NCBI GenBank assembly: GCA_017506865.1
Contig: JAFCMP010000549.1
Span: forward strand, 186,001 to 250,000
Source: Tribonema minus
Lineage: Eukaryota > Sar > Xanthophyceae > Tribonematales > Tribonemataceae
Direction: 5' to 3'
Length of the DNA stretch: 64,000 bases
Shown: in pieces, positions 2,138 to 63,596 of the stretch
Layout: every line of letters starts with the position of its first letter
How positions within the stretch are numbered: the stretch's first letter is position 1
Notes under the pieces: generated by a model
What the model was told of the DNA's origin: nothing
The model's input: the letters and a program-made list of their open reading frames with translations, nothing else
The model's database searches: none
Position numbers and translations under genes: made by a program

Positions 2138-5100
2138 CTGCGCCGGCGCGCTCAGGAGCCGTGTCCGCCCTTCTGCGTTGCTGCCGCCGCTACCCGCTGG
2201 CGCTGCTGCTGCTGCTGCGTCGGCGCTGGCGCGGCGCGGCGCTGCAGCAGCAGCGGCGGCCCTGCGCGCTGCTGAGCGGTTTGCCTGCAGCGGAGGCACG
2301 TAGGTATATGGGAAGATGCGCTGTCAGCATTAGGTCACAAGGGAATTTATGTGTAAGTCGCTGCTTCAAAACATGTGTACTGCGGAAATATGTGTGTTGG
2401 TGGCAGCTCTGCGCGCTGCTGAGCGGTTGGCCTGCAGCGGAGGCATGTAGGTACATGGGAATATGCGCTGTCAGCAACACATCGCAAGGAAACATGTGTG
2501 CAAGGCGCTGCCACATGCACGGATGTGCTGCTAAGTACGTGCGTTGTGCGCCGCTGAGCGGTTTGCCTGCAGCGGGGGCATGTAGGTATATGGGACGATG
2601 CGCTGTCAGCATCTTATCGCGAGGCAACATTTGTGCAAGTCGCTGCCATATTGACCATGTGGGTACTGCGAAGTATGTGTGTTGTTGTACAGTAGTTGGC
2701 CTGCAGCAGAGGCGTATGGGTAGATGGGAGCACAAGCTGTCAGCGTCGCGTCGCAAGGCAACATCTGTGTAAGGCGCTGCCGTATTTCAAGTCCGTGGAC
2801 TCCAATGTGTGTTGTTGCTACCTAGGTACTTCGAAGTAGGATATGGGACCACGCGCTCTGACTTTGAGACGCTTTCCAAGAAGCGGTGGAGGTCTCAGAC
2901 CATTGGCAAAAGCACGGAGCCTACTGTAGCGGGCTGCCCTGTGGCTTCTAGGAGCGTGCCGCATCAAGCAGCTACCTAATGGTTAGGGTTAGTAGGGTTA
3001 GGGTTAGTAACGGGCGCCACCCCGTCAGGCAGCATGTGCTGATGCTGTACAAGCCAGTGAGGCAGGGAGTACACCTACATGCCGTGCCAAAACTTCAACT
3101 TCCACCCACTCGTGCCACAGCTTTCACGGTACCTGACTTCTGGATCTGAATGGGCTGCTGTGGCCAAAATGCTGGTACATTGGAAGAATTATCACAACGT
3201 GGTAAGAATGGGTAGATGGGTCAGCCACCTGCAAACAACGAATGCACGAACTGTCCGTTTAGGCTACTGTACCTGCACGGTCTGCTGCGTTTAGAGAGCC
3301 TGTACAAAGCTGCCGGTCGGTGACATAGAGAGTGAAATGACATTACATACCTACCAACAGGGACCCAACACTCCACACACCTGGCTGCTGCTGCATGAGA
3401 AACGAAGAGTACACAAAGGGACGTAGAGTACCAATGTACCTGGCTGGCGGCTGATGAGGGCGTTCGCAGCGTGAAGAGTACACAAAGGGTACACACAGAG
3501 TCCAAGTGTACCTGGCTGGCGGCTGATGAGGGCGTGCGCAGCGGCGGCGGTGGCACCACTTCGGTCTTGCACAGAGGACAGGTCCTCTGCCGCTCTGCAG
3601 GTTTGAAAAACGCCACCAGCAGAAGCAGTAGCAACAGTGCACAAAAAACATCATCAGCGCTTGTGTCGTGCTGAGCATGGACATGTCCTCTGCCACTCTG
3701 AAAGCACAGCACCAGCAAGAGCAGCAGTGGACATGGAACAGTTGGCGTGTGTGTTGTGCTTAGTGCTGCTCTGCTCCTTTGCGCCTTTTGGTGCTCCTAA
3801 AAGTGCACAAGGGGCATGTCCTCTGCCGCTCCGCAGGTTTACAGCACAGCACCATAGTGGACAAGAGACATGATCAGCACGTGCGATGTGCTTTGCACTG
3901 CTCTGTTCGAATGTGTGCAGCTAGAAAAGCATATACGTGACAACCATTGCCACTTTAGTGCCAAACTTGACACCTGCTTCAGGGCCCCGGCTTAACTATT
4001 GCAATCAGAGCACAGATCTCAACATGACTGCAGGGATCTCAGGGTTGGGTGATTGTGAGCACGCACAGGAGGTAGCTATCGACATGGCGACCATTCACCA
4101 AGTAGAATACGGCACCAAGCAGCGGGGGCTTGATGATCGTGACCGCAACTTAAACAAAAAGCGCACATATAAGGAGCATGGGCCCGCAGCGGACCTCGTG
4201 CAGGAATCCTAGCATTAGGGTTTGGTGAAATCGTGACCGCACCTGAGATCCACGGCAACACGCACGCGCGGTGCATGACGTGCGCACACGTAAGCCGCAC
4301 CAGTCTCTCGCCCACTGTGTAGTCTTCAAGACATATGCTGCAACAAGAGAACAGAAATGGCAAGCAGAGCGGTCAAAAGGAGCTCTCTGTGCGGCCCTGC
4401 ATGCACATGCTACAGAAAAAGAAGAAAAAGTTGCCACATGTGCGGAAGCATGCGCAGGCGCAAATAACACTAATTGCTATTCCCAAGAACTGGTCTGCGC
4501 ATACAATGGGGCATGTTCAGCAGGCACCGCAGTTCACCAGCCACTTGAGCTAGCTCATGGCAGCGTGGTCAGCTTGCATCGCAGCAGTGTCACTGTGTTT
4601 GCCGCTGCTGTACTCATTTTGCAAAGGCAAGGCAAATTACATGGCCAACTATGAAACCAACTCAGCAACTGCTGCCAGAGGCACGAGTGAAGACAGTAAA
4701 GTACAGTACAGTACAGTACAGGTGTGGACGTTCCATGAAACAGTCACTGACCTGCAGCTGCTGATGACGGCGCCAAATGGACCAGCAGCAGTGCGCGCAA
4801 GAAACAGCAAGTGCAACAGAGGCCAAGAGTCAGTGTGGCAGCGCTTAGAAGACAAAAACAATCGATGCTTCGAGGTACTACATTTGTAAACAGGTTGCGC
4901 AGTTCCGTTGTTGAGCTGATGGCCGGCTTCAGTCAGTGTTGCATAGCTTCAAAGCAAAGTTGTTGTGTCAAAGCAATGTTGTTGCGTCTGCGACTTACAT
5001 CCGGTTGCAAAGGACCAAGCCTCTTGCATGCAGTGATGCAGATATGACATGCCGGACAGCAGCAGCAGCCGTTGCAAGGGCAAGCCAACCCGCTTCTGTG

Positions 5101-8100
5101 TATTTTCTTGCCGATCACAACGGCGCGGATACAGGACTGCACCACCCACTCCTCAACCCCTGGGGTCAACCTAACCCCCGTACTGTAACCCTCAGTCAAA
5201 CTTCCTCAAGGCGTAGCTGGCGTCCCGATGCGTGCATCACTTAGGGTCAGGGTTAGTGTTAAGGTTGTCATCACCACCGGCCTGGCGAAAATCCTTTTCT
5301 TGTGCTTCAGAGACTCTGATGAGTTCCCCCCCCCCCACCCCCCACCCCCACAACGCCCGCGTTGCATCTGGCGGCACATTGATCTGCACCCTGCATCTAA
5401 CCCTAACCCTAACCCTAACCCTAACCCTGACCAGCTGGCATCAGCCGCACAGCAGACTCTCACCACAGGCTCTACCGGAACTTCAAGCGCAGTAGTTCCA
5501 GTTGCTGAGCGGTGCCGTAGCTAACCCTGACCCTAACCCCAACTCCAACTCATATCCTCTGGTGTCATGCGCTACCTACCGCCCGTGCTTACATCCCACA
5601 TCAACGCCAAGGTACACTAGAATCGAAGCCGAACTTCAAATGCTGGACTTCAGGTACCGAGCGCTGCCATAGCTGCTCTGACCTGTCTTTCTCGAAAGTC
5701 TCCCTGACCCTAACCCCAAGTCCGACCCATCTCCTCTGGCGGAATACATGCATACGCTAGCGCCTGTGCGTACATCCCACATCAACGCCAAGGTACACTA
5801 CAGTAGAATCGCAGCCGACCTTCAGGTGCTGAACTTCAGGTGCTGAGCTTCAGGTGCTGAGCGCTGCCACGCTGACCTGTCTTTCTCGAGGTCGCCGCCC
5901 GCCGCCGCCACAACCTCAACAGTACCGCAGCACACCTTCAGGCGCTGAGCGCTGCCGTTGAGCGCTATCATGATTTTCTCTGACCTGTCTTTCTCGAGGT
6001 CGCCGCCCGCCGCCACCACCACCTCCGGCAGCCGCGCCGCCTGCGCCAGCGACAGCGGCCGCGTGCTGCGCAGCGCCGCCTCTCGCCGCCCCAGAAGGCG
6101 CTCACTGCAAGAGGAAATGACGTTCGTTCGAGAGCTCATTGACTGTGACAGTGCTCAATGAATGACGCAGCAGCACTCAGCGTGCTGCGCGGCGCAGCCT
6201 CGCGCCGACCCAGAAGGCGCTCACTGCAAGAGCATACGACATTTACATAGTTGAGGGAGCTCGGCGACTGTGGCAGTGCTCAGTAAATGACACAGCAGCG
6301 CTCAGCACGCTGCGCAGCGCCGCCTGGCGCCGCCCCAGGAGGCGCTTGCTGCAAGAGGTAGCAACATTCAGTCGGGAGAGCTTGGTGACTGTTTTCACTT
6401 AAAAGGCGTAGGCTGTGTGCTAGGGCTAGAGCCGGCGGCGTGGCATTAGGGGTAGAGTTAGGGTCTGGCATGACGCTGCGCTGCCTCGTGGCGTCCCAGA
6501 AGCCGCTCAAGCAAAGAACACAGCAGCGCTCAACGCACGACATAATGCTCAGCAACTGATGAAGCAGCGCTCAACAACTGACACAGCAGCGCTCGGCAAG
6601 TCACACAGCAGCGCTTAGCAAGTCACACAGCAGCGCTCAGAATTCAACATGAAACAGCAGCGCTCAGAGTTCGGCGCCTCACCTGGAGCACAGAAACAGG
6701 CTCGCGCATAGCAGCAGCGCCAGGAGAAACGTGGTGACCACCGCGACCATGGTCATGTTGAGGCTGAAGAAGAGCTGCTCGTACGGGTCGGTGTTGTCTA
6801 CGTACACTACCTGCGCAGCAAGAAGTTCATGAAGATGAAATGAGGGCCATGAAGATGAATGACACGGCCAGCCTCAGAGACAGAGCAGTGAATTGTAGCT
6901 GTAAGAGGAGACTTCTCAAGCAATTATATAGTGTAAATAGAACAAAAACAGCTCAGTGACAGAGCAATAAGCAGTGAATTAATTTTCCATAACATTTACT
7001 TTGGAGTATGTGTTATAGACAACGTAAATGCGAAAAGCTGCTGTCGGTTACACGCCTCGCCTCAGTGACGCAGCAGTCATGTGTTCGCAAGGGGTTGCTG
7101 CAATTTTAAATGGCCCGCAGAGCAGCAGATGTGTTTGTGAGAGGTTGCTGTACATCACACGTTCAGCCTCAGCGACAGGGCAGCAACTGTGTTATTTTTT
7201 TTATTTGGTGTCTGCAAACAGCAAACAACCCCCCCTTCCCCCATTGAGCTGCTGGCTTGCAGCCCCCTACCACCCCCCAGGTGTTACACAGTCGTGTGTA
7301 TTTTGGCAGCATGACATGAAATATCCCTGACGGCAGTCAAGGCGAGCTGATAGTTGCTGAGAATGGACAAAGGTGAATGGGAGCATGTTGCAGCTGCCAG
7401 TGAGAGGCTTTCCGTTGTCCGCGGCGCGCTCAAAACAAAACGCCTAACCCCAACCCTACACTTAACCCTACCCCTAACCCTAACAGGCCAGCACGCCCGG
7501 TAAACAGAGAAAGCCCGGCATGTACGCACCAGGTCATTGGCCATGCTTATGCTGTGGCTTAGTGCTAGGGTTAGGGTTGTCGCTAGCTAGGCTTAGTGTT
7601 GCGGCTGCGGCTGCCGCAGATAATAGTTGCTGTGCGTACTTCTCTATGCAATCATGGCCTGCATGTATGCACGCACCGGCCCGCGCGGATCCGACGCCGC
7701 GCGCGTGAGCCAGCGCAGCACCCTCCCCAAGAACTGCGATACGAGCATCATACACTACTATAGCAGTATACGCAATATACATATTTTGAAGTCTACAGTT
7801 TGTGTACTCCACTATGCAATCATGAGCTACACGTATGCACGCACCGGCCCCCGCGGATCGGACGCTGCGCGCGTGAGCCAGTGCAGCACCCTCCCCGATG
7901 ACTGTGATACAAGAACCGCAGGAATACGAGCGGGGGGCTCCGGTGCCCCCCCCGTTTTCTGCATGTGAAACAGCGGCTCTTCCATGTAGTCAAAGACCAC
8001 CACCAGCGCTGCACCCGCCTGCCGCGCGTTCTCCACCTGATGGCGCGGGGTCACACGCAGGTGAGTCTGACTCTGACTCTGACCCGAATGACATGCATCA

Positions 8101-11971: not shown

Positions 11972-12425
11972 GCTGAGGTCAGCTCAGAAGTCGAGAGCGA
12001 CCGGCTGCACGAGGCGGTAGGTAGGCTTCTGAGGTCCATGCTCGACCAGGACGAGATCGACCTGGACAACAGATACAAGGAGGCTATCGACAAGGAAGGT
12101 TGTCAGGAGAGCCCTGAGTGCGCGGACGCAAGCTGCGGTGCCGTCAAGCAGGGTAGCTGCCCGTACGCACTGCTGGGGCTCACGCGCACCCTTGATACAG
12201 TGATGCGCACCAGTGAGCAAGTGCGAAAAGCATTCAAGCGGCGGGCGGTCTGGCTGCACCTGATGAGACAAACGACAAGGACGCCAGTCTTTTCAGGGAT
12301 GTCAAGGATGCCCAGGTTGTAATTGTGCGCTGGTACCTGAACGACGAACGCCAGGTGACCACACAGTATGCCTGGAATGTGGTAGCCAAGAGGTCCGAGC
12401 TCAAGCTTCAAGACACCTGGCTCAG
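11972..12425 (+). pseudogene. J-domain pseudocopy, plus-strand arm of an inverted pair
   Basis: Read on the plus strand, this segment follows the J-domain exon at 14774-15340: a SDRLHEAV stretch, then SCPYALLGLTRT, then SEQVRKAFKRRAVWLH and, in another frame, a C-terminal AWNVVAKRSELKLQ matching AWRVFRRRAELNL. A one-base loss at the HPD position breaks the frame, so it should not make a full J-domain. It joins tail-to-tail with the minus-strand copy at 12430-12916. Confidence 0.7.
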
Positions 12426-12429
12426 CACA

Positions 12430-12916
12430 CGCTGGTTATGCTTGTGCCCGCGCACACTGAAGTCGTGGGCCTCCTTTACATTCCTGAAGAACTCGGGGTC
12501 CTTGCCGTCTGTCTCATCAGGGTGCAGCTGGACCGCCCGCCGCTTGTAAGCGTTGCGCACTTGCTCACTGGTGCGCGTCGCTGTGGTGACAGTGCACGTC
12601 AGCCCCAGCAGCGCGTACGGGCAGTTACCATGCTCGTCTGCACCGCAGCTTGTTTCCGCGCACTAAGGCACTCCAGATCACCTGCAGAATTGGGTTCCTT
12701 GTATCTGTTGTCTAGCTTGACTTTGTCGTTTGTCGAGCAAGGACTCCTGCAGTTCCTCCGAGAGTCTGCATTATGCGGCTGGTTGCTCTCGAATTTAGCG
12801 CTGGCATCAGCGGCGACAGGGTTAGGGTTAGGGTTAGCGACAGCGTTGTGCGCTGTGGCGTCGGCGTCGCCTGCTGCCGCCACAATGTCGCGTCCGCCGA
12901 GTCCTTGTTCAGCCAA
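12430..12916 (-). pseudogene. J-domain partial copy, minus-strand arm of an inverted pair
   Basis: On the minus strand the 5' part reads Ala/Asp-rich sequence like that before the J-domain at 15.2 kb, then after a frame break LLGLTCTVTTATRTSEQVRN and an intact HPDE motif. It stops at the palindrome centre near 12428, before the C-terminal part present in the plus-strand arm. A short TTAGGG run (about 12819-12838) interrupts the N-terminal Ala-rich part. Likely non-functional because the frame is broken and the 3' end is missing. Confidence 0.65.
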
Positions 12917-12929
12917 TATAGGGAAGGGA

Positions 12930-24440: not shown

Positions 24441-24472
24441 AGCCCAGTGTCAAACTCTGTCTTGATTGTAGA

Positions 24473-41532: not shown

Positions 41533-44500
41533 TCACCGCCGCTGAAACCCCAGCCCAGGATGGACCATAAACTTAGCGTCTAGAAAGCTGGAGTCTGGGC
41601 TGTCGACAGGCACAGCCGCATAGCAGGCACCTGTGCCACCTCCCGGTAGTCTTTCACTCCACAGCATTACTAATGCTGCGCCGCCTCCGCCATTCCTGTC
41701 GGTGCATTTTTGGACTTCTTTCAGCAGGTCTGGTGGAGCGATGCCAGCTTTGACCAGGTGTGCTAGGCCCTGCGGGAGCGGTGCAGCAAGAGAGCAGAAC
41801 ATGATATATCAGATTTCCGCAAGTACTATTGCCATGTCCATGGCAGACTCATATTCAATTTGCAAGTGCACTTCGCCAGCACACCGGTGAGCAGTTGGAT
41901 ACCGCAGGCCACCAGATATCCCACTTCCCAATGCCGTTGGCCTGGCGACTGAGTCAGCTGTTGGCCACCATAACAATAATCGACCACAATGATCCAAAGT
42001 GGAAGAAACTTCTAATTTAAAGTCAGCTGCTACTGTCAGTCCGCTGACGAAGCATGACTGCTATGTAATCGCAGCGTTAGTAACTGCAATGACAGCAGCC
42101 TGAAAATGCCATAGCCGGTTGATGGGGAGAACAAGCAGGCGCCAGTAAAATTCGCACCATCAAAGCCGTGCATGTTTTCATGATGATATGCTAGCTGAGC
42201 GTACCACGCATGAGAACTGCAAGACCCCAAGTCACAAAAGCTATGGCCTGAGACTGCCGCTGCGTGCTCTGCTGCTTGTATTGGTCAGCACATGTGTACT
42301 TGTCAATGAACCTAGCAGCTACGCATTCAATGCATGATGTGATCGGACCGGACCTCAAGTGAACCCGCTGCTGCATGGTAAACAGCAATCCTTCAGGACG
42401 CCGACACGCTGATATTTGCAGAGGCCTTTTGCACCAGAAATGGAGCACTATTGAGTGATTCCCTGGATAATATATACCTTAAAATTCGTTATCAAAAACT
42501 ACTTACATTTTGCCACATCTCCTTCTCCGAGCTGTACAAGAAGCACGTTTGCCCAGGCGGCGTGTGATACTCCTGCACCACAGACGCCGCCACCTCCCTG
42601 TACCTGTTGACGAGCGGTGACGCACAACAATCCAAATCTCAGTGAGCGATGCTGCCTTTGAGGTTGGGAGTATGGCTACTTCAACTTTATACTTCAAAGC
42701 AAAGAGTTACCCAAAACGCACCAACAGCAGTGCGTTGCGAGGCCCATGACTGCTAGTGCCTGCTGCTGTGGTAGCCAACGCAACTGACATAGAAGTATGA
42801 ACACCAGGTGCACATGTGGCATGGCTGAAGCACCTCCACGTAAGTGCAACTGGTAGCAGTGACCGTGAAGGCAGTAACTATTGCTCACAGAGTACACAAC
42901 GCGTCCAACCGCAGCGGCTCAACTGCCGAGCAGCGCGCATGCTCTGACTATGCACAGTCGAAAATTGATGAGAGTGTGAGCGGGGGCAGAAGGGCGGGCA
43001 ACTGACTACCTGCATGTGCGAGTTTGACAAGCGTGCGCATACATACACTGGCAAATAGTACACGCTTGCAAGTGCCCCGTGTTTCCCCTCACGTCAGTTA
43101 CACGGAAACGAATCAAAAATCGCAGAGCTCTAAGTGACAAAGTGTGGGTAGCCGCCAGCGTCTTGCACTAACAACCGTGGTCGCCGCTGCTGCAGTCATT
43201 GGCCACGAGTCAACCAGTGCCATCATATCCACAGTAAGCACAATGCGTCCCCACCAACGCGTCCCCATTGTGGCATAACAGCGCCTCACCTGTCAAGCAG
43301 CGCGCACTGCTCAGCAACAGGCACGGCATGCGGGCTGTCGTACGCGGGCAGCAGCAGCAGCCCCGTGAGCGGCCCCGCCTGTGGCGCGCGCGCCAGCGTC
43401 AGCGACGTGACCAGATGTCGAACGGAGCCGTCGCGAGCGGAGGCGGCGCCCCCCCCTGCGGGAGCCCATGGGAAGCCCACTGCCGCGCGGTCTAAAGAGA
43501 GGTGCCTGAGAGAGCAAAGGGGGGGGGGGGGGTAGGTCGTTGGCAATGACAAGGGGCGGGTGTTGATCTGTGAGCGGGGCCACCGCCGCACGGTCTAAAG
43601 AGAGGTGCCTGAGAGAGCAAGGGGCGGGGGGGTAGGGTAGGGGGATAGGTCGTTGGCAAGGGGTATATATGGGTATGTGAGCAGGCCCACCGCCGCGCGG
43701 ATTGAGGAGAGGTGCCTGAGTGAGGACCGGGGGGGGGGTTGGGGTTTGGGGATTGGTCGTTGGCAAGGGGTAGGTAAGGATTTGTGAGCCACCGCGGTCC
43801 TCGTATACATGCCTATTCTAGCAGTTCTACCCAGTTGTCTCAGCAAATGGCCCTGCGCTGGTACGCATTGTGCGGCGGGCAGCGGGCAGGTTCTGCAGCG
43901 GGCGCACGCCGCACTCCACTTGCCTGCCACTACGCACAGGATGCCATCGCCCATGAGCCTGCAAAACAGCAGCTGAGGCTACTGCCTAGTGATCAACTTC
44001 AACTTCAATATGTGAGACGCACTGAATGCCATCGTCCACAAGCCTGCACCCGTTGGCGTCCAGGAACAGCAGCTGAGGCGTGCTGCTCAGGCTGAGTCAA
44101 CTTCAACTTCAAGATTTGTAGCGCACCGGATGCTGTCGTCGACGAGAACGCCCGTTGGAGTCCAGAAACAGCAGCTGAGGCGTGCTGCTGAGGCTAGTGA
44201 TCAACTTCATCTTCAGTAATTGTGGCGCAGATGCCACTGTCGACGAGCACACCCGTCGGAGTCCAGAAGACAGCTGAGGCATGCTGTCGAGGCGTCAACT
44301 TTAACTTTTTAAAATGTGACATCCTGGATGCCATCATCAACAAATGTGTGCCCATTTGCAGTCCAGAAACAGCAGCTGAGGCGTGCTGCTGAGCGTTACG
44401 TAAACTTCAACTGCAAGGTCTGTGACGCACTGAATGCCATCGTCGACAAGAACCTGCCCATTAGAGCGTCAAAATAGCAACTGAGGCATACTGGGCTACT

Positions 44501-46484
44501 AAAAGTCACATTCAAATTCAGGACTTGTGAACACCGAATGCCAGTGTTCATTGAAAAATCGCCCATCGTCAATGAGGAAAGCTGAGACATGCTGCTCAGC
44601 ATCAACTTCAAGAATTGTGACGCACGGATGCCGTCGTCGACGAAAACGCGCCCATTGGAGTCCAGAAATAGCAGCTGAGGCGTGCTGCTGAGGCCCGCAG
44701 TGCTCGCGCCGACCAGCTGTGTTAACTTCAACTTCAGTTTTTGGCGCACCGGATGCCATCGTCAACAAGAATGCGCCCGTTCGAGTCCCAGGAACAGCAG
44801 CTGCGGCGTACTGCTGAAGTTAATGGTCAACTTCAACTGCAAGCTTTGTGATGCACCATATGCCATCGAGGAAAGCTGAGACGTGCTGCTTAGTATCAAC
44901 TTCAATCATTGTGACGCACCGGATGCCGTCGTCGACGAGAACGCGCCCATTGGAGTCCAGAAACAGCAGCTGAGGCGTGCTGGTGAGGCCCGCAGCACTC
45001 GCGCCGCCCCCCAGCTGCTTCACCATGCTGCGCTGCAGCTCCTCCGACTGCGCCAGCGGCACGGCGCGCCAGTGCGAGTGCAGGCCTTCCAGGTAGCACC
45101 TGCGTATGGCAAGTTGAAGTTGAAATCAGATGGGGCAGCCGTTGGCCGCCGAGGGCTGTGAATTCCAGTGTGAAAGCAGTGCATGCGCATGGAGCACAGT
45201 CTGCTGCACAGAAAAATTTGTTGAGTGGACATGACGGCGTGTCAGTGCGAGTGCAGGCCCTGTAGGTGGCATCTGCGCGCAGGGAAGTCACAGTTGAAGT
45301 TGAATGGATTTTCTTGCAGCGTGGGCACACAGCGAATGAGAATGTAATGAGCGAAAGCGATGCGTGCGCACAGAGCACAGAGATTGTGTTGAGGGGGCAT
45401 CATTGCAGGCCCTCGAGGTAGCACCTGCGCCGTGGCAAGTTCAAGTTGAAGTTGAGACGGGCAGTCGTTGGCCGCCGAGGGTTGTGAAAGCGATGCGTGC
45501 TCGCGGAGCACAGAGAAATGTGTTGAGTGGGCATCATGGCGCGTCAGTTCGAGTCTAGGCCTATATGGTCTGAGTTATGTGGAGGGACATTATGCATGAA
45601 GCCCAGCTCATACATACACCATCTGTACGCCACTTGCCTCACTGCCGAAGACTTAAGGTTGGGGGTAGATAAATGTACATCAAGTATGCGCACAGGCACC
45701 TTGATTGATGGACCTCTTTCACACTCATTCCTGCCCTGAAAGGGCTTTATTTAGACTACCACAGCCTTCATCATCCCACATGTGTCACTAGCGTGTGTTC
45801 GCCCATGAGCACACAGTTAAGACGCGTCATATGCTGCCACGTAGCGCTTCAGTGTTCTGACCTACCCTAGCCCTAATCTTGACGCCAAACCTTACCCTAA
45901 TCACAACTTGCCGCATGCGCTGGAGGAACAAACACAAGGTTTCCATTAGATACACATACATGCGCGCGCGCACAACTGCTTGCTGATCACTGGTGCGCGG
46001 TGAAACGAAGGGTTGTACTAGGGTTGAAGTTAAGGTTGGAAGTTAAGTAGGGTTACAGCTCAGAGCTGACGCACCTGAACGGTTCCGAGCGCTGCTTTGA
46101 CATGCTAGGGTTGAATTTGAGGTAAAAAGTTCGGGTTACGGTTCAGCGGAGTGACGCACCTGGATGTTTCAGAGCGCTGCCGCGACGTGCTAGGGTTGAA
46201 GTTCAGGTTACAAGGTAAGGGTTACAAATAAGACCCTCCCTGATACCTCCGCAGGTAGGGGGCGAGGGACCCCTGGTGAATGTGGAAGTGAGGTTAGAAC
46301 GTAGGGTTACAAGTTCAGAGGTGACGCACCTGAACGTTTCGGAGCGCTGCCGCGACGTGTCGCGGGCATCCGACGCGCACACCACCACCTGCAAGTGGCT
46401 CCCCCCCGCCTTCAGCCGCGCCTGCATCGTTTCCTCCGCCTTCAGCAGGAGGCTCGTGGCCGTTCGTGTGGAGAAGCAGCCCAC
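41533..46484 (-). CDS. nucleoredoxin-like thioredoxin-fold protein lacking the CxxC active site (5' exons not found)
   Basis: Exons (minus): 46484-46330, 45099-44920, 43505-43290, 42603-42507, 41769-41533, with GT-AG ends and matching phases throughout; 294 codons then stop. The order follows nucleoredoxin/tryparedoxin: VGCFSTRTATSLLLKAEETM, SHLQVVVCASDARD, LEGLHSHWRAVPLAQSEELQ, TSTPQLLFLDSNGRVLVDDG, VGFPW, GLLLLPAYDS, FLYSSEKEMWQN. In the family the first block is VGLYFSAxWCPPC; here the WCPPC site reads as TATSL, so the disulfide chemistry is missing and a structural or binding role is more likely. The first exon begins in phase 0 at an acceptor, so the N-terminus is upstream and unidentified. 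Fold assignment rests on pattern recognition of spaced motifs. Confidence 0.72.
43590..43725 (-). repeat. upstream 5'-edge copies of exon 43505-43290
   Basis: Plus-strand blocks at 43595-43622 and 43692-43720 repeat the exon start and acceptor at 43482-43512 (CGGTCTAAAGAGAGGTGCCT then GAG). Each is followed by a G-run (C-run on the gene strand) and by GGTCGTTGGCAA. Spacing is close to 100 bp. Confidence 0.9.
43931..44885 (-). repeat. array of about ten 3'-edge copies of the nucleoredoxin-like exon 45099-44920
   Basis: The exon end encoding QLLFLDSNGRVLVDDGI plus its GTGCGTCAC donor recurs at about 44840-44885 (partial), 44744-44807, 44620-44695, 44527-44600, 44423-44497, 44320-44395, 44225-44292, 44121-44193, 44017-44092 and 43931-43980. 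The period is 100-125 bp. Most units carry AACAGCAGCTGAGGCGTGCT, the GCACCGGATGCC donor side and a following TCAACTTCAACTTCA run. None is required by the gene model; several keep open frames and donors. Confidence 0.93.
45241..45575 (-). repeat. three upstream 5'-edge copies of exon 45099-44920
   Basis: The exon start (plus reading GTGCGAGTGCAGGCCTTCCA then GGTAGCACCTGCG) is repeated at 45245-45277, 45403-45433 and 45542-45570 with increasing decay. The intron next to each (GTTGAAGTTGA, then TTGGCCGCCGAGGG and AGCGATGCGTGCGC) is also repeated, with a period of about 150 bp. Confidence 0.88.
46060..46208 (-). repeat. downstream 3'-edge copies of exon 46484-46330
   Basis: The exon end and donor (plus reading GTGACGCACCTGAACGTTTC) recur at 46151-46185 and 46067-46100, each followed by GAGCGCTGC and then TAGGGTTGAAGTT. 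The donor GTGCGTCAC is preserved in both copies. Confidence 0.88.
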
Positions 46485-46610: not shown

Positions 46611-46690
46611 ACGCCTGCATTTTGTCCACCGCCTTCAGCAGGAGACTCGTGGCGGTGCGCGTGGAGAAGCAGCCCACCTGGCGGCGCGCG
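46611..46690 (-). repeat. upstream 5'-edge copy of exon 46484-46330
   Basis: About 75 bases repeat the exon start (VGCFSTRTATSLLLKAV reading) and its CGCCAG acceptor with few changes. The copy also lacks the CPPC codons, so the active-site loss predates the duplication. The intron block with GCGTGCGTGCG and TGTATGCATGCC is repeated too. Offset is about 195 bp. Confidence 0.9.
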
Positions 46691-51262: not shown

Positions 51263-54200
51263 CTAGCCAGTGTCCTGCTGCTGGTTGTGGCTGAGCGCTG
51301 CAGCGGCGGCGTCCAGCGACGAGCGCCGGCGCTGCCGCTGCTGCTGCTCCCCCGCATACCGCTCCATGAAGCTGCTGAGCTGCGGCTGACCGCTGGCGGC
51401 GGCGTACGCGCGGATGCGCTCGCGCAGCGCGTCCTCACTGAACGTGCGCTGGTCGCTGCCGCCGCCAATGCCAACATCGCTGCGCCGTCCGCTCGGTAAG
51501 CCCGCTGGCGCCGCCGCTACAGCCGCTGCGGCTGTGCTGCCACGCCTCCGCTCCTGCGGCTGCGCCGCTGCCGCTGCCGCTGCCGCTGCCGCTGGGCTCT
51601 GAGCGTTGTCGTCGTCGTCGTCGCCTGGCTCCTCCGCCGTGCGGCGCTTGAACAGCTCGCGCGCGAGCGTCGCCAGCGCGCCGTGGAACGCGCGCGTGAA
51701 CTCGGGGCGCGCGTCGTCGTGCAGGTGCGCCGGCGCCGCGTCCGACAGCAGGTGCGCGGCGGCGTGCACAAGGACAAGCCCAAAGTCGCCGCTGCCGCCG
51801 AGGCGGCGCGCGTGCACGTACAGCGCGCGCGCGTCCGCGTCCCACAGGTACGAGTTGCGGAACGCGTTGCCGGAGTCCGGCGGCGGCGGCGGCAGCGAGC
51901 GCGCGACCTCCACGCGCATGCGCGAGGCGCCGAGGCCCAGCACCGCCAGCAGGTGCTCGCCGAAGTCGAGCCGCGACAGCGCCTGCGGCGGCAGCGCGGC
52001 GCGCGGCATGAGCTCCAGCACCGCGCCCTGCGGCGGCGCAGCGGCCTCGTCGTGCGCGTCGCGGTACGCCGGCGGCGGCGGCGGCGCTGCTGCTGCCGCC
52101 GGCTGGCTAGCAGCAGCGGCGGCGGCGGCGGCGGCAGCAGACGCCTGCGCCGCCTTGACCTGCTCCGCCTGCGCCGCCACCGCCGCCTGCGTCGCCTGCA
52201 GCGCGGCCACCAGCGCCTCTATGCCGTCGAGCTTGCGCTGTATCGCGCGGAACTGCTTGATCTGCGCGGCGGCGGCGGCGCGCGTCGCCGCTGTGATGGC
52301 CGCCGGCGCGACCGCCGCCGCGCCCTCCGCCGCCGCCGTCGCCATCGCCGCCTCGGTCAGCTCCGCCAGACGCGCCGGAGCTGCTGCTGCCGCTGCCGCC
52401 GGCGCTGCTGCCGCCGCCGCCGCTTCCATGCGCGCCACCGCAGCGGCCGCCGCCGCTTGCAGCCGCGTGCGAGCGGGGTTGTCGGAGCCAGATGCCGCGG
52501 CTTCCCGTGCGCGGCGCACGGCGTCGGCGTCGATGGCGATGCCCTCGGTGGCGCTGACAGTTGAAGTTGAAGTGGCGAGCGCTGCTGCGGCGGCGAGACG
52601 CTCCACTTCTGCCTGCTTGGCGGCGGCCGCGTCGAAGGCGGCCAGGGCTGCGCGGTCCGCCTGTGCACGGGACGCGATGGTAAGCGGCGGCTTTGGTCAG
52701 TCACGTTGCCCGTGTGGTCAACGTGAGCAAGTGGTAATGATGGTGTTGTGCTCTCCAGTGCCCAGGACTTGAAAGCATTCACCCTGCCCTAAGCCCAAAC
52801 CACCACCTCCTTACCCTACCCCTAACCCTACCTTCGGCTTGCGCAGCGAGCTCCGCGGCCTGCGCGTTCTCCAGCGCCGCCTGCTTGGCCCTCTGCCACA
52901 TTCAACCAACTGAACCTGAATCGCGTTTAACCAATGTAACTTTAGACTAAAGGTGATACAAGCTTAACCCTTGCTCCAATCTTCAACCTACCTCGGCCTT
53001 TGCGGCCAGTTCCGTGGCCTGCGCGCTCCCCAGCGCCGCCTGCTTGGCCCTCTGCCATGTTCAACCAACTGAACCTGAATCGCGTTTAACCAATGTAACT
53101 TTACACTAAAGGTGATACAAACTTAACCCTTGCTCCAATCTTCAACCTACCTCGGCCTTTGCGGCCAGTTCCGTGGCCTGCGCGCTCCCCAGCGCCGCCT
53201 GCTTGGCCCTCTGCCATCTTCAACCAACATATCCCTAATGCACATTTACGGCAAACCTTAGCCCTAACCCTACCTCGGCCTTCGCGGCCAGCTCCACGGC
53301 CTGCGCGCTCTCCAGCGCCACAACACGATTAAACCTCAAAAAACTAGCCCCTGCAAGTTCACTTCAAACCCAACCTACATATCACCTTCAACCCTACCTC
53401 GGCTTTTGCAGCCAGCTCTGCGGCCTGCGCGCTCTCCAGCGCCGCCTGCTTGGCCCGCTGCCGCGCGCGCAGCTTCTCCTGCAGCTTGCCGCGCTTGGCC
53501 TCCTCCGCCGCCTTCATGGTGGCGAGCGCCGCTGCCGAGTCGGCCTTGAACTTGGCCAGCAGCGCCTCTTTCTCATCCGTGTTGAGCTTTCCTGTGCGCG
53601 CGAGGGCGTTGGCTTCTGCTTCTTTTTGGCGTGCCATGAGTTCTTCCTCTTTGGCACGGAGTTGCGTCTCCTGTGGTGGGCGCGTGATGCGTTGCGGCGG
53701 CGGCGTTTTCGTCGTCAGCCAGGGCACGCTACTAGCCTAGGTAGGGTCTGATGATCGCAGTCATAGGCTAGGTGATTTAGGGACATGATCTGCTCCTCTG
53801 TGACGCGCAGCATGCAGTGTTTGTATATCTGCAACCAAGTAGCAGGATACCCAACTAGCAGGCCAGCCTGCTAAGTTAGGGTTGATTGGTGGAGTGATGG
53901 AAACCTGGTGTTGAAATTGGAGTTGCAGATGCCCCCCAGCGCCTTCTTTCAGTGGTGAGCTCTCGCGTGTGCATGAACTGGTAACGTTGCCCCTGTGGAG
54001 GGGCAATGTGGCATCTGGTGTGCCCGTGTCTGTACAGCATGAAACGTCGTTGAAATGAGACTAGCGCTGTGAGTTTTGACTCGCCGATCATCAAAACGGA
54101 AACTGAGGCCGCACTGTCCGAGGCACTGCTGCACCGCCTCCGTACCTGCACCGTGTGTGTGTGTCAAGTGCGTACTTCAATTGCACACTTCAAATGCGCA

Positions 54201-57200
54201 CTTCAAGCACAAACTTCAAGTACCTCCACATGTTTCAAGTAATAAAAAGCGCGCCCTAAAGCTCTCAAGGGCATCGCCCTGGCGCGCTTACGCTCGGCAC
54301 TGTCGGCAGCGCTCCACATGGCGTACTCTGGCCGTGTCATGACACACATGGCAGAATCCAGGGGGGGGGGCACATGGAGGAGGACGTAGGGGAGGACCCC
54401 GAGATGCCATTTGGCGGCGGCGGCGTTTGAGTGGTTGTCGTTGCGACACTTTTAGACTGTCATACGACATGTAGATTCCTTACAGCTAGATGCCAATCAT
54501 CTGGGCTTTTTCGCGCCCTGAGCGAGAATTAATAAAAAGTACACACTTCACTAATAAAAGTACACACTTCACACTTCAAGTGCATACTACTGCCAGTGCA
54601 CATCTCCAAACTTCAACAGCAAACTTCAAGCACACACTTCAACATTGACCTACACACCTGCACCGCGCGCTCAGCCTCCATGAGCCGCGCGTCGTCGCTC
54701 GCCAGGCGCTGCAGCTCTGCCTGGTGCTTGGCGCGAAGCTCCGCCTCGAATGCGGCGCGCTCCGCGGCGGCCTTGGCAGCGCGCTCCTCCCGCGCGCGCG
54801 CCAGCTCCGCCTCGTACGCCGCCACCTGTCGTGATGTGAGGCGCAGATAGCGGTTCAGTCTAGGGCGCCATCCGTAGCCCTAAACAAACGACTCCTAGAG
54901 CTAACTGCAGCCGCGCTTTATCAAGATGGCCTGGGCAGCGCGCTGTTCCCTCGCGTGTGCCAGTTCCGCATCGTACGCTGCCACCTGTTGCCATCATGAT
55001 ACAGGACACAAAAACAGATTGAGCCTGTGGCGCTGACCGTCACTGTAAGCATATCTGTTGAATTCACCCTAATCATAATTCTGTCCATGGCCATAACAGC
55101 GCGCTCCTCTTGCGCGCATGCCAGCTCTGCTTTGTAGGCTGCCACCTGTTGCCGTATGAGACAGCCAGAAGAAGTTTGAGTCTTTGGTGCTAGGTTTTAC
55201 TCTAAGCAAACCGTAACTGCAACTCTACTGAATGACTGGATGACCGTGGCAGCATGTTCCTCCCGCGCGCATGCCAGCTCCGCATCATACGCCGCCACCT
55301 GTCGTGATACATGACAGAGAGAAGGGGTTGAGCCTGTAGCATGACCTGACCCTAAGTATACCCCTGGCTCTGACCCTGAGTTTCATGAGAACCTTGGCCG
55401 CGCGCTCCTCCTAACCCTAACCCTAACCCTAATTGCGTGCTAGCTCCCCGCCTCATACCCTGCCACCTGTCACTATGTAAAACACACGAGGCTCCACGCC
55501 TTGCAGACCGCCACTTGTTGCACAACAAGGTGCAAGATTGGAATGTGTCGCTAAGCCCCAACGCACCAGCCGATGTACAGCAACTTGAAGGCCGCATCGC
55601 ATACTTGAACCCTAACCCTACACCCTAACCCAACTCTGACCCTGCCGTCACCGCTCACACGCAACCTTACCTCCACCTCTCAGCTTTCACCCCAAGCTCT
55701 AGCTTCGACCCTAACCTACATCTGGCGCGACGCGCTCCGTTTTGATGCGGCGCAGCTGTCGTCAAGTTTGCTTATGTTGAGAACCGGTCGTAACTTCAAC
55801 CCATGTCGTCGAGTTTGCTCATGTAAAACCCTTCTGTAACTTTAACGTTTACCACAACTTCAATCCTAAACCCTTCTCGTGCGCGGCGCGCTCCGCGTCG
55901 ATGTGGCGCAGCTGCTTCAGCCCGTCATCAAGTTCGCTCATGTGAGACTTGATCGTAACTTCAACTTCAACTGGAATTTCAGCTTCAAATTGTAACTTGA
56001 ACTTCAACCTACCTCTTGCGCGGCGCGCTCCGCGTCGATGCGGCGCAGCTGCTCCAGCGTGTCGTCGGGTGCGACACGCTGCACCGTCGCCGCAATCTCG
56101 CGCAGCTGCCGCTGCCGCAGCTCCAGCTGCTGCCCCAGGTGGCAGCGCTCCATGTCCGCGAGCACGCGCACCTCGATGTCCTGCAGCACAGGAGAGAGCG
56201 GCGAACGAAGAGAAGCGGATTGTGTCAGTGCTCAGGTGCTGCCCAAAGTGGCAGCGCTCCGTTTCCGTGAGCACCTGCACCTCAATGTCCTGCAGAGCGC
56301 GCACGAAAACTGCGGTTTGTGTCAAGTGCTCCAGTGCTACGCCAGGTGGCAGTGCTCAGTGTTTGTGAGCATGCGCGCCTCCGTGTCTTGCGGCACTTGA
56401 AGTTGCGTGACAGTGCTCAACCCTAACCCTATAACCTGCCAAACGCGCAGCGCCGACAGGGCCATGATCCGAAGGGCAGGGTTGGGAGTTACGTTTTGGG
56501 ATGGGGTTAGGGCCAGGATGAGGGTCAGGTCGGGATTCAATTCTGAAAGCTGAGCTCTGCAGCAAGGCGCGGGCTGCTGCGGTGGGTGACAGTGCTCTGC
56601 GTCTGCCACCGCACCTGCCAATAATGCCTTTGTAGGGGCATGCGGGAACATGCGGAACGCTGTCACACTCCAGCACACACAAAGCATTTCACTCCATACT
56701 AATTCAAGAGCCTATGGCTACAGTTACGCAACGAAGGTCCATGACATGTGCTACGGTTTATTGGCAGAATACCATTGGGGTGCACACATGACGCGGAGTG
56801 GCAATCTCAAGTTCACAGCACCCACTTCCGCGGTACACTGTACCCCACTGTTGCACTGTGCTGTACCCAATACTGAAGTGTACTGGGTCAATCCCTCAAG
56901 TGAACTCAGCGTCCGCGGCAGCGAGCTCGAACCTGAGCGGGAACCTGAGCGCTGCGTGGCAACCTCAGAGTCATACTTACGTACATGCAAGTACATACAA
57001 CCCTGCTAGAACGCAAAGTTTTGGGTCCGCACCTGACGTTGAGAGGAGAACTCTCGGCGTCGACCGCCTCACTGTACAGTACACTGTGCCGAAGTGTACT
57101 GTGTCCATCGCGCGAGTTAACTCAGCAAAATCGTACACCGCAGCAGAACTGTACATACCAACCCCTGCGGCACACACAGTTCTGGGTCCGCACCTGACGT

Positions 57201-60200
57201 TGAGACGAGAATTCGGCGTCGACAGCAGCAATTGCGCGCTTTCGCGGCTCCTCATCTGCCGCTGCCGGCCCCAGTGCCACCAGCGCCGCGCGGCGCGCCT
57301 CCGCCTTGACCTCCAGCAGCCCGCGCAGCGCCTCGCCGAGCGCTGCTGCGCGCTCCGTGTACTGCAGGGTTAGGATTAGGGTTAGGGTTAGAATTATGGT
57401 TAGGGTGAGGGTGAGAGAGAGGGTTAGGGCTAAGGTTAGGTTAGGGTTACAATTAGGGTTAGGGTGAGGGTTAGGCTGCAACTGCAACACGCGACGGCGT
57501 GGATGAGCATCACATCAGCAGCGCGTCTCATTGAGCGACGGTGCACACGCACTCCGCTGCGGTCGTGGGGCAGCAGAAGGAAGTGTCGTCACCATTGGAG
57601 AGTGCACCCTGTTGAGCGCTGTTGTTACTGCATAGATGATGCAAGAAAATGTGTGGTGACGCGTGCGCCTTGCTGAACGCTGCCATACCCTCCATGTACT
57701 GCACCATGCGCCCGTTGACAGAGCAAATGCAGTCATCTTCAAGGCTTTGACGCATGAAGCTGCCTACATGGAGGCCCGGGCCTTATTCACCGCATCAAGG
57801 GCGCATAGCGACGAGCGTGATCTACCTGCAGCGTTGAGCACTGCAAAAGTCATTTGCAGTACAAAGGGGGTTCACCATCATTCACATACACCACAGAAGG
57901 GGAAGACGCAGTTCACTTGCAGTGCAGTGGAGGGCAGACGGAGCACCTGCTCAGATTGGCGCCCGCGCGTGAGTGCCGCAGGTTGAGCACTGCGGTGACC
58001 ACACTACAACACTACGTTACAGTACAATGGGGCACAGCTCATTCACAGTACAAAGGGGAGACGACACGGTTCACCAGCTGTACAAAGGGAGACAGTCACA
58101 CCTGCGCACTGAGTAAATCAGCGCCGTCGCGCGAGTGCCGCGGGTCAAGCACTGCCGTAGCCGCCGCAGGCACAGATCGTATGCAGTGTAGTTCACTCGC
58201 TGTACACAGGGAGGACAGCACAGTTCACTTGCAGTACAAGGAGGGGCGGAATGGAGCGTCACCTGTGCAGTCAGCAGATCGGCCCTCGCGAGAGTGCCGC
58301 GGGTCGAGCACTGCCGTCACCGCCGCTCAAAACATGCACAATGCTCATCAATTGAAATCTACTAAAGAGAAGGGCAGCACAGTACAACAGAGGGGCGGCA
58401 GTTTACAAGCAGTACAGTCGGAAGCATACCTGAGCAGTCAGCAGATCGGCACCCTCGCGCGAATGCCGTGGGTCGAGCACTGCCGTCACCGCGGCGCTGA
58501 TGCGTTCGTCCGGCACGAGACCGGACGCGAGCACGTCTGCCAGCACGTGCGACTCGCGCTGCGACTCAGACTCGCCGTCCGCGAGCGGCAGCGCGAGGGC
58601 CGCGCGCACCGCTTCCTCCCAGGTGAGCGCCTTGGCATCCTGTTGAGAGTAAACACAAAGTAGAGTGAATGTGGTCGAGAATGTCATCATTGAGAACTTC
58701 ACAAGTCCTGGAGTTGCAAAGGAGACCAGGCGTAGAGTGGGTACTTTTTGCAAGCCCCGAGGAGAAGCCGGCAGTGTGCCAAATCACAGCTCGTGCTGAC
58801 AGGCAGCCAATGAGTGTTAGGCACAGCTGCAGTGGAGGCGATAGCTGGTAGGCACAGAGAACTTCATCAGCCTTGGAGGTGCAAGCGAGAGAGGGTGCCA
58901 CCATGCTTGAGAAGGTTTGTACGTGCTGCCGTTTTGTGTGCCAGCGGCGGGGCAACATCGGCACACGGGCTGTTCCGAATGCGAGTGCCTGTCAAGTTGG
59001 TGTGCGCAATGCGTTCGGGCAGATGATTTGACGGGGCGCCACTATTCAGCGACAACAGGGAACAAGACACTCTGGGTGCAGAGCTCAAGTGACTGGCGGT
59101 GCAGCTCCAAGTCAAGTGACTCACGCAACAGCGCCATCGCAAGTCTGCCATTGCAAAGCCTGCATTCGGTGCAAGCGGTTCAGCATTGCACTTGCTCAGC
59201 ATTACCACGTATATCGCTACTGCGGCGCACCTTGCCACCAGTACACTACCTACGCACATGTCCGGATATTATGCCGTGCGTGCACTGAAACATGCCCGCA
59301 AGCTTACCTGCGCAGCAGAGGCGGCAGTTGCAGCTGCCGCCGCCGCCGCCGCCGCCGCCGCCGCCTGCCGCTGCAGCAGCTCCGCCTTCTCCGCCGCCTG
59401 CCGCTCTGCCTGCGCCTGCTTCTTCTTGGCAAGGCGCCCCGCAAGCTTGCCCTTCTGCTGCCTGCTAGTTGCGGCCAGGGCCTGGGCTTGCTCCTCTTGC
59501 TGCGGCACACATGTATGCATGGCAATTGACACTGGTTAAAGATCGCTGCAAGCAGATTCGGCAATACCCCAAGTCTTTGGTGCGTTCGGTCGGATCGCAA
59601 CATGCAGATTCAGCGGACACCGTGGGCTTAGCGCGTGCTTGGTGGGATTGCCAAGACTCTGGAAGTGCCTTTTCTCAACGCACGTGGTGCCTGCATGGTG
59701 AGTGCCATTTAACAAGCAGAGCACTCGTGAAGGCAGAGCAAGTGAAGGTGTCAGCAGGCGCTGCGCATAATGGTGCGCGCAGCTCGTGCCCGCATCTGAC
59801 ACTACCGTTCAGACCCTCATGCTGAGCACTGCCAACAGACTACTCTCAAGACCCCAACATGACCCAACATACCTACATACCACAAGTGACCGCTGTCACC
59901 TCTGTAATCACCCACTCTAGTGATACTGGACGTTGTCAAGTACTTGGTGCAGCGCAGAAGAGGTTGCTGCATGGGAGTAAACCCCAGGAATGCATGGAAC
60001 ACCCGACCTCCCTTGGGCCCTGTATCAACACAAACCCACAAGTACTCGGTGATTTCGTTTAGAAGTGATAGACGACGCGAATCGAGACACTTTCAGGGTA
60101 TTCGCAAGACTCGTGTAGATTCTGGTCGCAACCTAGACATCCACCATCTGTTTGTTTTTTTGCGCGCCAAGCGAGAATCAACAAAACGCACTTCGAAGTT

Positions 60201-63200: not shown

Positions 63201-63596
63201 GGAGCGCGCGGCACTGCGGTGCGCGGCGCGCGCGCGGCAGCGCGCCGCCGCCACCGCCTCCTCCGCCGCCTGCTGGTCGGCGAGCGCGACGGCGCGGCGC
63301 TGGTGGCGCGCGCGCAGCGCCGCGACTTCCGCCGCATTCGCCGCCTCAGCCTCTTCCGCCGCTGCCGCCGCCGGCGCCGCCGCCGCCAGCAGCAGCGCGC
63401 GCTGCCGCGCCGTCGCCGCCAGCGCCTCGGTCTCCGCTTCCTCGAGCTGAGCAAGGAGGACTGCGGCATCGCGCTGCTCTTCGGCCTCAAGGAGCGCGAG
63501 CGCCGCGACGACTTCCTCTTCGCCGGCGTTTGATTTCTCGAGCTGCGCCTCGCAGGCTGCGCGGCGCGCTGCCGCCGCCTCCTGCAGCCACTCCGT
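51263..63596 (-). CDS. long alanine-rich coiled-coil protein (5' end beyond the window)
   Basis: Exons (minus): 63596-62742, 62306-61605, 61340-60876, 60559-60446, 59499-59308, 58639-58430, 57361-57194, 56180-56013, 54825-54658, 53670-53398, 52660-51263; possibly also 53210-53151 and 53051-52992. Every exon begins and ends in phase 0. About 1570 codons are in view. Nearly all are Ala/Glu/Arg-rich heptads (AAELESALAAERARREAALR; AALEQQLEQEAQQRLAALRA), a long parallel coiled coil. The last exon (465 codons) passes from Ala-rich coil to a compact domain: RLDFGEHLLAVLGLGASRM, NAFRNSYLWDADARALYVHA, GDFGLVLVHAAAHLLSD, PEFTRAFHGALATLARELFK, then a disordered tail and a stop at 51263. I do not recognise this C-terminal domain. 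A cytoskeletal, basal-body or scaffold role is only an inference from the coil. Confidence 0.8.
52832..53274 (-). repeat. four 3'-edge or whole-exon copies downstream of coiled-coil exon 53670-53398
   Basis: The last 60 bases of the exon (RAKQAALESAQAAELAAKAE) plus donor GTAGG recur with ends at 53274, 53151, 52992 and 52832. The copies 53210-53151 and 53051-52992 are both exactly 60 nt, open, flanked by a GGCAG acceptor and a GAG/GTAGG donor, and nearly identical to each other, introns included (period 159 bp). They could be spliced in as extra 20-residue exons. The 52832 copy has one extra base before its donor; the 53274 copy lacks a clear acceptor. Confidence 0.88.
54230..54580 (+). mobile_element. 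retroelement-like 3' end, plus orientation
   Basis: Shares with the 26.4-26.96 kb copy, in opposite orientation, the segments GGCATCGCCCTGGCGCGCTT, CAGCGCTCCACATGGCGTAC, the GGCGGCGGCGTTTGA stop region, CACTTTTAGACTGTCA, and the tail GCGCCCTGAGCGAGAATTAA then TAAAAAGTAC. It starts later in the coding part than the 26 kb copy. It lies within an intron of the coiled-coil gene, antisense to it. Confidence 0.75.
54915..55470 (-). repeat. four upstream 5'-edge copies of coiled-coil exon 54825-54658
   Basis: The exon start (GTGGCGGCGTACGAGGCGGA on the minus strand, after GACAG) recurs with acceptors near 54986, 55147, 55304 and 55466, a period of about 160 bp. Readings are VAAYDAELAHAREQRA, VAAYKAELACAQEERA, VAAYDAELACAREE and a decayed fourth. 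Intron matter with CATCATGATACAGGACA is copied too. The fourth copy is interrupted by a CCCTAA tract. Confidence 0.92.
55411..55434 (+). repeat. telomere-type tract inside an exon-edge copy
   Basis: Three to four CCCTAA units sit between GCGCGCTCCTC and GCGTGCTAGCTC, which are adjacent (as GCGCGCTCCTC-CCGCGCGC) in the other copies of the same edge. The tract therefore entered an already duplicated exon edge. Confidence 0.85.
55720..55940 (-). repeat. downstream 3'-edge copies of coiled-coil exon 56180-56013
   Basis: The exon end (plus reading GCGCGGCGCGCTCCGCGTCG then ATGCGGCGCAGCTG) recurs at 55880-55940 and 55725-55775. The following GTCGTCRAGTTYGCTCATG blocks are shared between the two copies. 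The donor region is decayed (CTCGTGC and TCTGGCG in place of CTACCTC). Confidence 0.85.
56235..56396 (-). repeat. upstream 5'-edge copies of coiled-coil exon 56180-56013
   Basis: The exon start (plus reading CAGGTGGCAGCGCTCCATGT to ATGTCCTGCAG at 56134-56186) recurs at 56236-56295 and 56343-56395 with a period of about 108 bp. The first copy keeps the CTGCAG acceptor; the second has CTTGCGGCAC instead. Confidence 0.88.
57027..57070 (-). repeat. downstream 3'-edge copy of coiled-coil exon 57361-57194
   Basis: The plus-strand block GGGTCCGCACCTGACGTTGA present at the exon end (57184-57203) recurs at 57025-57044 with its donor, followed by GAGAACTCTCGGCGTCGAC against GAGAATTCGGCGTCGAC. The offset is about 160 bp. 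A decayed 5'-edge copy (CGCTGCCATACCCTCCATGT) lies upstream at 57663-57705. Confidence 0.88.
57366..57476 (+). repeat. long degenerate TTAGGG tract beside an acceptor
   Basis: About 110 bases of GGGTTAGG-type repeats with substitutions begin a few bases upstream (in gene direction) of the acceptor of exon 57361-57194. On the gene strand it reads as CCTAACCCTAA and serves as the pyrimidine-rich region before that acceptor. Confidence 0.85.
57945..58326 (-). repeat. three downstream 3'-edge copies of coiled-coil exon 58639-58430
   Basis: The exon end (plus reading CGCGCGAATGCCGTGGGTCG then AGCACTGCCGTCACCGC) recurs at 58264-58326, 58102-58168 and 57945-58008, a period of about 162 bp. Copies keep GAGTGCCGCGGGTCGAGCAC and a CACCTGYGCA donor context. 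Between them run repeated GTACAAAGGGGAG and TTCACTYGCAGTACA blocks. Confidence 0.92.
60180..60350 (+). mobile_element. retroelement-like 3' tail, plus orientation
   Basis: It contains GGCGGCGGCGTCGTTGGAGT, CACTTTCAGACTGTCACACG, CATCTGGGCTTTTTCGCGCC and CTGAGCGAGAATCTATAAAA, the same order as the tails at 26.4 and 54.5 kb. Only the 3' tail is present. A further partial tail (GCGCCAAGCGAGAATCAACA) precedes it at 60165-60190. Confidence 0.7.

Follow-up and report, generated by a model that had tools for sequence, protein, structure and literature searches.

The stretch examined here (hereafter the window) comprises 64,000 bp of the genome of the xanthophyte alga Tribonema minus, positions 186,001 to 250,000 of contig JAFCMP010000549.1 in a eukaryotic assembly of 158 Mb and 554 contigs (GCA_017506865.1). 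Its introns carry partial copies of the edges of neighbouring exons, arranged in tandem. We have verified this pattern at nine exons, all on the minus strand, in three or more genes: a long coiled-coil gene, a transporter gene of the SSF type, and one or two others. An earlier note on the window had claimed such copies in at least four genes and about 15 exons, and the array that it included at 2138-2786 could not be assigned to any confidently called exon. Aligned with itself, the window shows 75 forward repeat pairs lying <1.5 kb apart. Around three exons of the coiled-coil gene, decaying copies of the acceptor and exon start lie upstream and copies of the exon end and donor lie downstream, as read from the sequence. 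The nine exons and their copies are as follows, with upstream and downstream taken in the direction of the gene.

56013..56180, minus strand: exon of the coiled-coil gene, both edges copied (splice/codon model; sequence)
56229..56289, minus strand: first upstream copy of the 5' edge of exon 56013-56180 (85% identity; sequence)
56327..56387, minus strand: second upstream copy of that 5' edge (80% identity)
55876..55929, minus strand: first downstream copy of the 3' edge of the same exon (89% identity)
55721..55758, minus strand: second downstream copy of that 3' edge (87% identity)
54658..54825, minus strand: exon of the coiled-coil gene with three upstream copies of its 5' edge (sequence; exon call); the copied edges start at 54984, 55145 and 55298, a spacing of 159, 161 and 153 bp (sequence)
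54826..55360, minus strand: the three decaying acceptor-side copies of exon 54658-54825 (self-alignment of 54769-55053 with 55089-55360 and others; sequence)
53398..53586, minus strand: exon of the coiled-coil gene with four downstream donor-side copies (sequence; exon call)
52824..53319, minus strand: those four copies, the copied junctions ending at 53274, 53151, 52992 and 52832; within this array, 52852-53228 repeats a 159-bp unit in tandem (96% matches)
58430..58639, minus strand: exon of the coiled-coil gene with three downstream copies of its 3' edge (edge-copy search; exon call)
57952..58328, minus strand: donor-side copies of exon 58430-58639 at 58263-58328, 58102-58167 and 57952-58000 (92, 79 and 80% identity)
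44920..45099, minus strand: exon of another gene, for which neither Pfam nor NCBIfam gave a match; it has a single copy upstream (45234-45271) and eight copies downstream
43948..44816, minus strand: the eight donor-side copies of exon 44920-45099, spaced by ~100 bp (tandem array 43964-44450)
37066..37304, minus strand: exon of a sodium:solute symporter-like gene (Pfam SSF, PF00474, E 2.3e-8), a window exon with donor-side copies that is backed by homology
36761..36974, minus strand: donor-side copies of exon 37066-37304 at 36872-36974 and 36761-36802 (88 and 83% identity)
34965..35099, minus strand: exon with one donor-side copy, probably of the same SSF transporter gene (self-alignment; exon call)
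34805..34910, minus strand: donor-side copy of exon 34965-35099 (aligned with 34919-35026, 88.9% over 108 columns)
34276..34607, minus strand: exon with two donor-side copies, 34174-34222 and 34060-34087 (edge-copy search)
5877..6104, minus strand: exon with upstream copies at 6180-6223, 6309-6346 and 6474-6509 and downstream copies at 5848-5868 and 5659-5696

We have counted edge copies in three sets of exons, which were set by homology at 10 chaperonin gene loci and by a splice/codon model in the window and in the C1 sample, the latter being 20 blindly chosen, evenly spaced 10-kb stretches of contig C1. A hidden Markov model (HMM) search for the chaperonin family PF00118 returned 56 exon-level matches; four of these are partial duplicates of the adjoining match and were excluded from the exon count as copies. 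Chaperonin junctions were placed by hand using the HMM ends and GT/AG splice-site scores. The splice/codon model was trained on the chaperonin genes and, in leave-one-out runs, agreed exactly with the hand-set sites for 42/49 acceptors and 40/45 donors; because some of the small exons that it calls are copies, only strong exons (≥90 nt and ≥30 bits) were used in the C1 sample and the window. In the chaperonin loci, each edge was represented by a 60-nt probe, and up to 1.5 kb on each side was searched with exons masked. The threshold for a copy there was a score of 28, the 99% level of 3760 control scores from other loci. The test omits unresolved edges and exons below ~70 nt, and in the C1 sample and window also an uncounted number of low-complexity probes and of edges with <300 bp of flank. 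The donor at 5787 of locus T5, a weakly scoring site picked after an array had been seen to start there, came out negative. One acceptor of locus T51 was first placed at 10285, where the exon reading contained a stop, and was moved by the splice/codon model to 10357; this leaves the edge counts unaltered and slightly alters the copy and indel counts. The mis-set edge still contributes 3 of the 179 copies in the anatomy set described below, and it enters the unit identities, the copy-versus-copy profiles, the overall synonymous count, the exon dinucleotide fractions and the random-window rates, while it is absent from the singleton count, and the chaperonin-intron analysis draws no intron from the T51 locus.

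Copies of an exon's 5' edge lie upstream of it and copies of its 3' edge downstream, as the earlier note had proposed. Over all sets, right-side copies were found at 81/229 exon edges and wrong-side copies at 3/229, roughly the rate that a 1% threshold allows; one of the 81 is the simple-sequence window exon 14778-15280, which we discount, as we do the edges of the likewise simple-sequence exons at 16051 and 17564. By edge type, the right side was occupied at 36/117 5' edges and 45/112 3' edges. In the chaperonin loci, 14/49 5' edges have upstream copies as against one with a downstream copy (score 29), and 16/45 3' edges have downstream copies as against none upstream. The C1 sample gave 18/54 right and 1/54 wrong for 5' edges and 24/55 right and 1/55 wrong for 3' edges, and the window 4/14 and 5/12 right, respectively, with no wrong-side copy at any of its 26 edges (9/26 versus 0/26). 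Counting by side here and elsewhere in the genome was part of the check that the earlier note had proposed, and the outcome is directional: the chaperonin and C1 sets pooled have 72/203 right-side against 3/203 wrong-side copies (Fisher P = 3e-21). All four duplicate PF00118 matches also lie on the predicted side. Mid-exon probes matched in 5/62 side-tests in the C1 sample and 2/18 in the window. The cross-gene controls and the wrong-side count rule out simple chance as the source of the copies, and these are confirmed as real and as general in the sampled parts of the genome, not limited to the window. The direction rule itself is expected rather than surprising, being largely forced by geometry and by selection on the exon: a junction-spanning duplicate shorter than the exon survives on the intron side only, the other side being coding.

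Tandem repeats of intron-exon boundaries have been named mirages in the amphioxus Adh3 gene and are also known from globin genes (PMC3087553). We interpret the algal copies as mirage-type arrays that arose by tandem duplication across splice junctions, followed by recombination among the copies, and put the probability of this interpretation at about three in four.

In 31 bounded chaperonin introns, whose two flanking exons follow each other directly in the profile (22,664 bp in total), we found 21 array footprints, 16 of which enter the exon by ≥10 nt where 5.9 would be expected under uniform placement (P = 1.8e-6). Three of the remaining five reach the edge or enter it by <10 nt, a fourth ends 14 nt before it, and the fifth is located 8 nt past an edge array. 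The footprints, which can overlap exons by as much as 80 nt, total ~9.1 kb beside 22.7 kb of intron, and introns that bear copies are longer (median 815 versus 490 bp, n = 13 and 18, P = 0.011). Because of these footprints and the longer copy-bearing introns, the earlier proposal that recurrent tandem duplication across junctions lengthens introns, leaving displaced exon pieces within them, is supported. In the C1 sample and window, where many exons are uncalled, 62/216 tandem pairs span the edge of a called strong exon against 29.3 ± 6.0 expected with shifted exons, and with so many pairs off such edges tandem duplication is not exclusive to them.

That result also sustains the strongest competing explanation, under which small tandem duplications arise throughout the genome's noncoding DNA and edge copies merely stay recognisable for longer beside a slowly changing exon. 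Relative to shifted exons, edges are enriched only about two-fold, and tandem pairs are present in stretches without called strong exons (21 in L023 and five in L020). The bounded introns argue the other way, as 19 of their 21 footprints reach or enter the edge, and we consider this explanation unlikely, though a serious contender.

The units were characterized in an anatomy set of 87 edges with 179 copies (mean 2.1 and at most eight per edge). Spacing between copies has a median of 147 bp and a 5-95% range of 83-199 bp (124 spacings between 40 and 260 bp), a wider range than the period of about 100-165 bp given in the earlier note. Spacings are not multiples of three, falling into 33, 36 and 55 by remainder. 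The exon part of a copy has a median of 55 nt, and the junction is included to within 3 nt in 134/179 copies. Similarity does fall with distance from the exon, as had been claimed, only weakly so (rho -0.24 over the 179 copies), with a negative trend at 15 of the 23 edges that bear at least three copies. For splice sites we used the corrected chaperonin set of 30 edges and 71 copies. A real-grade version of the copy's own site is kept in 18/31 acceptor-side and 22/32 donor-side copies, whereas a real-grade site at the opposite end, a donor or an acceptor, respectively, occurs in 0/31 and 1/32; random 25-nt windows hold such sites at rates of 10% (donor) and 9% (acceptor). The copies are therefore half-exons, many with their own splice site and almost none with a second.

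The splice dinucleotide survives in still more of them, AG in 28/31 acceptor-side and GT in 27/32 donor-side copies, at least as often as exon dinucleotides do (0.78-0.80), which would suit copies that selection maintains for use as decoy or regulatory splice sites. This retention is, however, near that of the neighbouring exon sequence; because the real partner is constrained in both cases, the copy itself need not be under any further constraint. Copy number moreover varies and some genes have no copies, and such selection appears improbable to us.

A little less probable again is that the copies are real exons, duplicated and spliced alternatively or constitutively. Some copies, in arrays T516 and T544, do keep reading frame and amino acids for 24-34 codons. 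In addition, differences in copies are synonymous in 208/406 cases where 29% is expected (the mis-set T51 edge included), and singleton differences in 67/142 where 31% is expected, an excess that real exons would also produce. Against these stand the missing second splice site and the indels, 37/39 of which are not a multiple of three in the corrected set (40/42 before the T51 correction), and on these two grounds we reject coding exons for most copies. Since the indels break the frame, we do not read the synonymous excess as coding constraint; our reading is that older copies keep the exon's earlier synonymous states or that conversion or exchange with the exon has taken place. At one chaperonin exon (L038, gene coordinates 5330-5629 and 5694-6284) the exon encodes GDRCRAY and all four of its nearest displaced copies GDRRRAY; the copies may thus record an earlier form of this exon.

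The weakest alternative, that the introns owe their origin to exonic AGGT segments duplicated in tandem (the Rogers model) or to introner-like insertions, invokes two known routes of intron gain (PMC4974935, PMC3443670), and it fares poorly because the units hold non-exonic intron sequence beside their own exon and adjoin an existing junction, edge probes score at background in the noncoding DNA of other sampled loci, and the repeats, with the spacing given above and ~55 nt of it exonic, do not amount to a whole intron made of exon sequence between two AGGT sites. A 7.5-kb query containing several of the window's arrays found no other place sharing them among 40 scored of 2007 candidates, nearly all of which are a 296-bp repeat, so that this is weak evidence of absence; the same 40 include no second haplotype of the window gene.

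Mirage-type duplication with later exchange also fits the comparison of exon and intron parts within units. Across 57 adjacent unit pairs, with the mis-set edge again included, exon parts are 0.88 identical and intron parts 0.78, as compared to 0.70 for unrelated introns under the same aligner, and the intron parts exceed the 99% baseline in 36/57 pairs. Copy-versus-copy identity profiles likewise fall at the junction. Two neighbouring copies of array T544 differ at 0/72 positions in the exon part and 17/57 in the introns that follow, and in array T516 the exon part is 3-8% different against 12-52% for the intron part. T544 also includes recent near-identical units. The apparently better preservation of exon-derived parts suggests exchange anchored in the exon, and exchange or gene conversion may keep the exon part of the copies intact.

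From what was observed directly (the copies and their side, the half-exon anatomy, the unit sizes, the concentration at edges in well-bounded genes and the longer introns), the following course can be proposed. A junction-spanning segment of ~80-200 bp would be duplicated in tandem, the primary lesion probably being a duplication made in break repair. The coding exon would keep the nearest junction, and the displaced exon piece would become intron together with its splice site. Splicing recognises exons by their paired splice sites (exon definition), so that a displaced piece with one site, a half-exon, would be skipped. By that principle, and given that splicing of amphioxus mirages is apparently undisturbed by RT-PCR (PMC3087553), the spliceosome presumably ignores half-exons here. 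Further duplications and exchanges would add copies while far ones decay. Pairing would probably occur mostly via the exon-derived part, kept uniform by selection on the real exon, and later growth by pairing of near-identical exon parts could place recent identical units beside old ones. A bolder version makes exon-anchored recombination a main engine of intron growth, with exons as conserved seeds, unequal exchange or gene conversion adding half-exon units, and exon-derived intron parts younger than their surroundings; we put it forward tentatively, as an idea that may well prove wrong.

Several observations weigh against this account or parts of it. Copies were located via their exon part, which builds a bias into the contrast between exon and intron parts, and in the two youngest units of T544 the intron is as alike as the exon. 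The synonymous excess could also mean constraint on the copies. Most tandem pairs of the C1 sample and window, all but the 62, miss called strong-exon edges, and the excess at edges may partly reflect that copies survive better when their partner is a constrained exon. Chaperonin loci are uneven, with copies at 6/6 edges in T51 and 8/13 in T135 and at 0/15 in T279a and 0/10 in T235b. Finally, copies rarely appear as HMM rows when counted by eye (4/56 chaperonin, 2/132 kinesin, 1/28 tRNA-synthetase, 0/96 myosin and 0/80 HSP70, omitting a few ambiguous overlaps and not including 92 rows matched by the light-harvesting family PF00504 in a profile search of the assembly), presumably because most copies are too short. 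The sharply differing chaperonin loci are L032 (T279a) and L034 (T235b) on the one hand and L029 with L035 (T51) and L030 (T135) on the other; by eye, exon GC content at third codon positions (GC3) has no clear relation to the uneven distribution over the 10 loci.

In the amphioxus study (PMC3087553), the mirages have minisatellite-size units of 10-160 bp, with 150-160 and 157 bp in the globin genes BflGb6 and BflGb9, where both boundary types are repeated; many repeats keep AG/GT, and haplotype length differences and concerted evolution are described. The algal arrays share the boundary-spanning tandem unit, the duplication of both 5' and 3' edges, the position of copies on the intron side, a similar, minisatellite-size unit length and the retention of AG/GT. 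They differ in that the mirages come from single chordate genes with RT-PCR and haplotype data, whereas the copies reported here were found in genome sequence, at about one-third of tested edges. There are other relatives. An intron gain in a potato RdRp gene (PMC4974935) also involved a tandem duplication carrying an intron-exon boundary with its splicing signals, but this was one isolated event, whose new copy came into use and gave rise to an additional intron. In human segmental duplications (PMC2812944), internal tandem repeats at exon-intron boundaries likewise alter intron structure; those units average ~30 bp, account for 27 intron modifications in recent paralogs and do not form serial half-exon fringes. 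Fill-in and end joining are a known route to short tandem duplications (PMC8355091), although these are described as insertions of <100 bp without a link to exon edges. Further relatives are the novel intron positions known from Drosophila (PMC2891723), the short direct repeats found near splice sites (PMC11782384) and the cases covered by an intron-gain review (PMC3443670). Exon-derived intron gain shares the tandem duplication and the splice sites, but makes introns from exon sequence, whereas here existing introns lengthen.

The earlier note was not aware of any description of such a genome-wide mode of intron growth. The kind of array is already described, and what appears to be new is the host, the scale and the apparent youth of the exon-derived parts; a genome-wide state of this sort had no recognised report in the literature searched, which mostly excluded subscription journals and is therefore weak evidence of absence. 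Intron lengthening is usually credited to transposons and slow insertion. Here, about one in three tested exon edges, in genes alignable across eukaryotes, has its own displaced copies, and mirages become a process that can be tested at genome scale, beyond an amphioxus curiosity. The arrays are natural experiments on splicing choice among several intact acceptors or donors, and their copies may hold snapshots of the exon's past sequence within its own intron.

The many light-harvesting matches in the assembly mark its source as a photosynthetic eukaryote; a haptophyte rRNA probe gave no match, a weak negative with regard to lineage. Light-harvesting matches of equal or near-equal score occur on the contig pairs C70/C489, C296/C490 and C1/C79. 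These are possible haplotigs or recent segmental duplicates that could reveal array polymorphism. The 296-bp repeat lies in the window at 54248-54546, in the intron between exons 54658-54825 and 53398-53586, and has at least 39 other full-length places at 96-100% identity among the 40 candidates scored with the 7.5-kb query; on this sequence evidence it is evidently a young, numerous element. Two segments, 12038-12220 (plus strand) and 12417-12637 (minus strand), resemble part of the DnaJ-like exon 14778-15280 (minus strand) and are dispersed or inverted partial gene copies, unlike the edge arrays. Interstitial telomere-type repeats are abundant in the assembly, where the 24-mer (CCCTAA)4 occurs 3991 times in forward and 3071 times in reverse orientation, in many cases well inside contigs; within the window they lie at 5397-5432, 37672-37698, 57366-57475 and 63715-63763.

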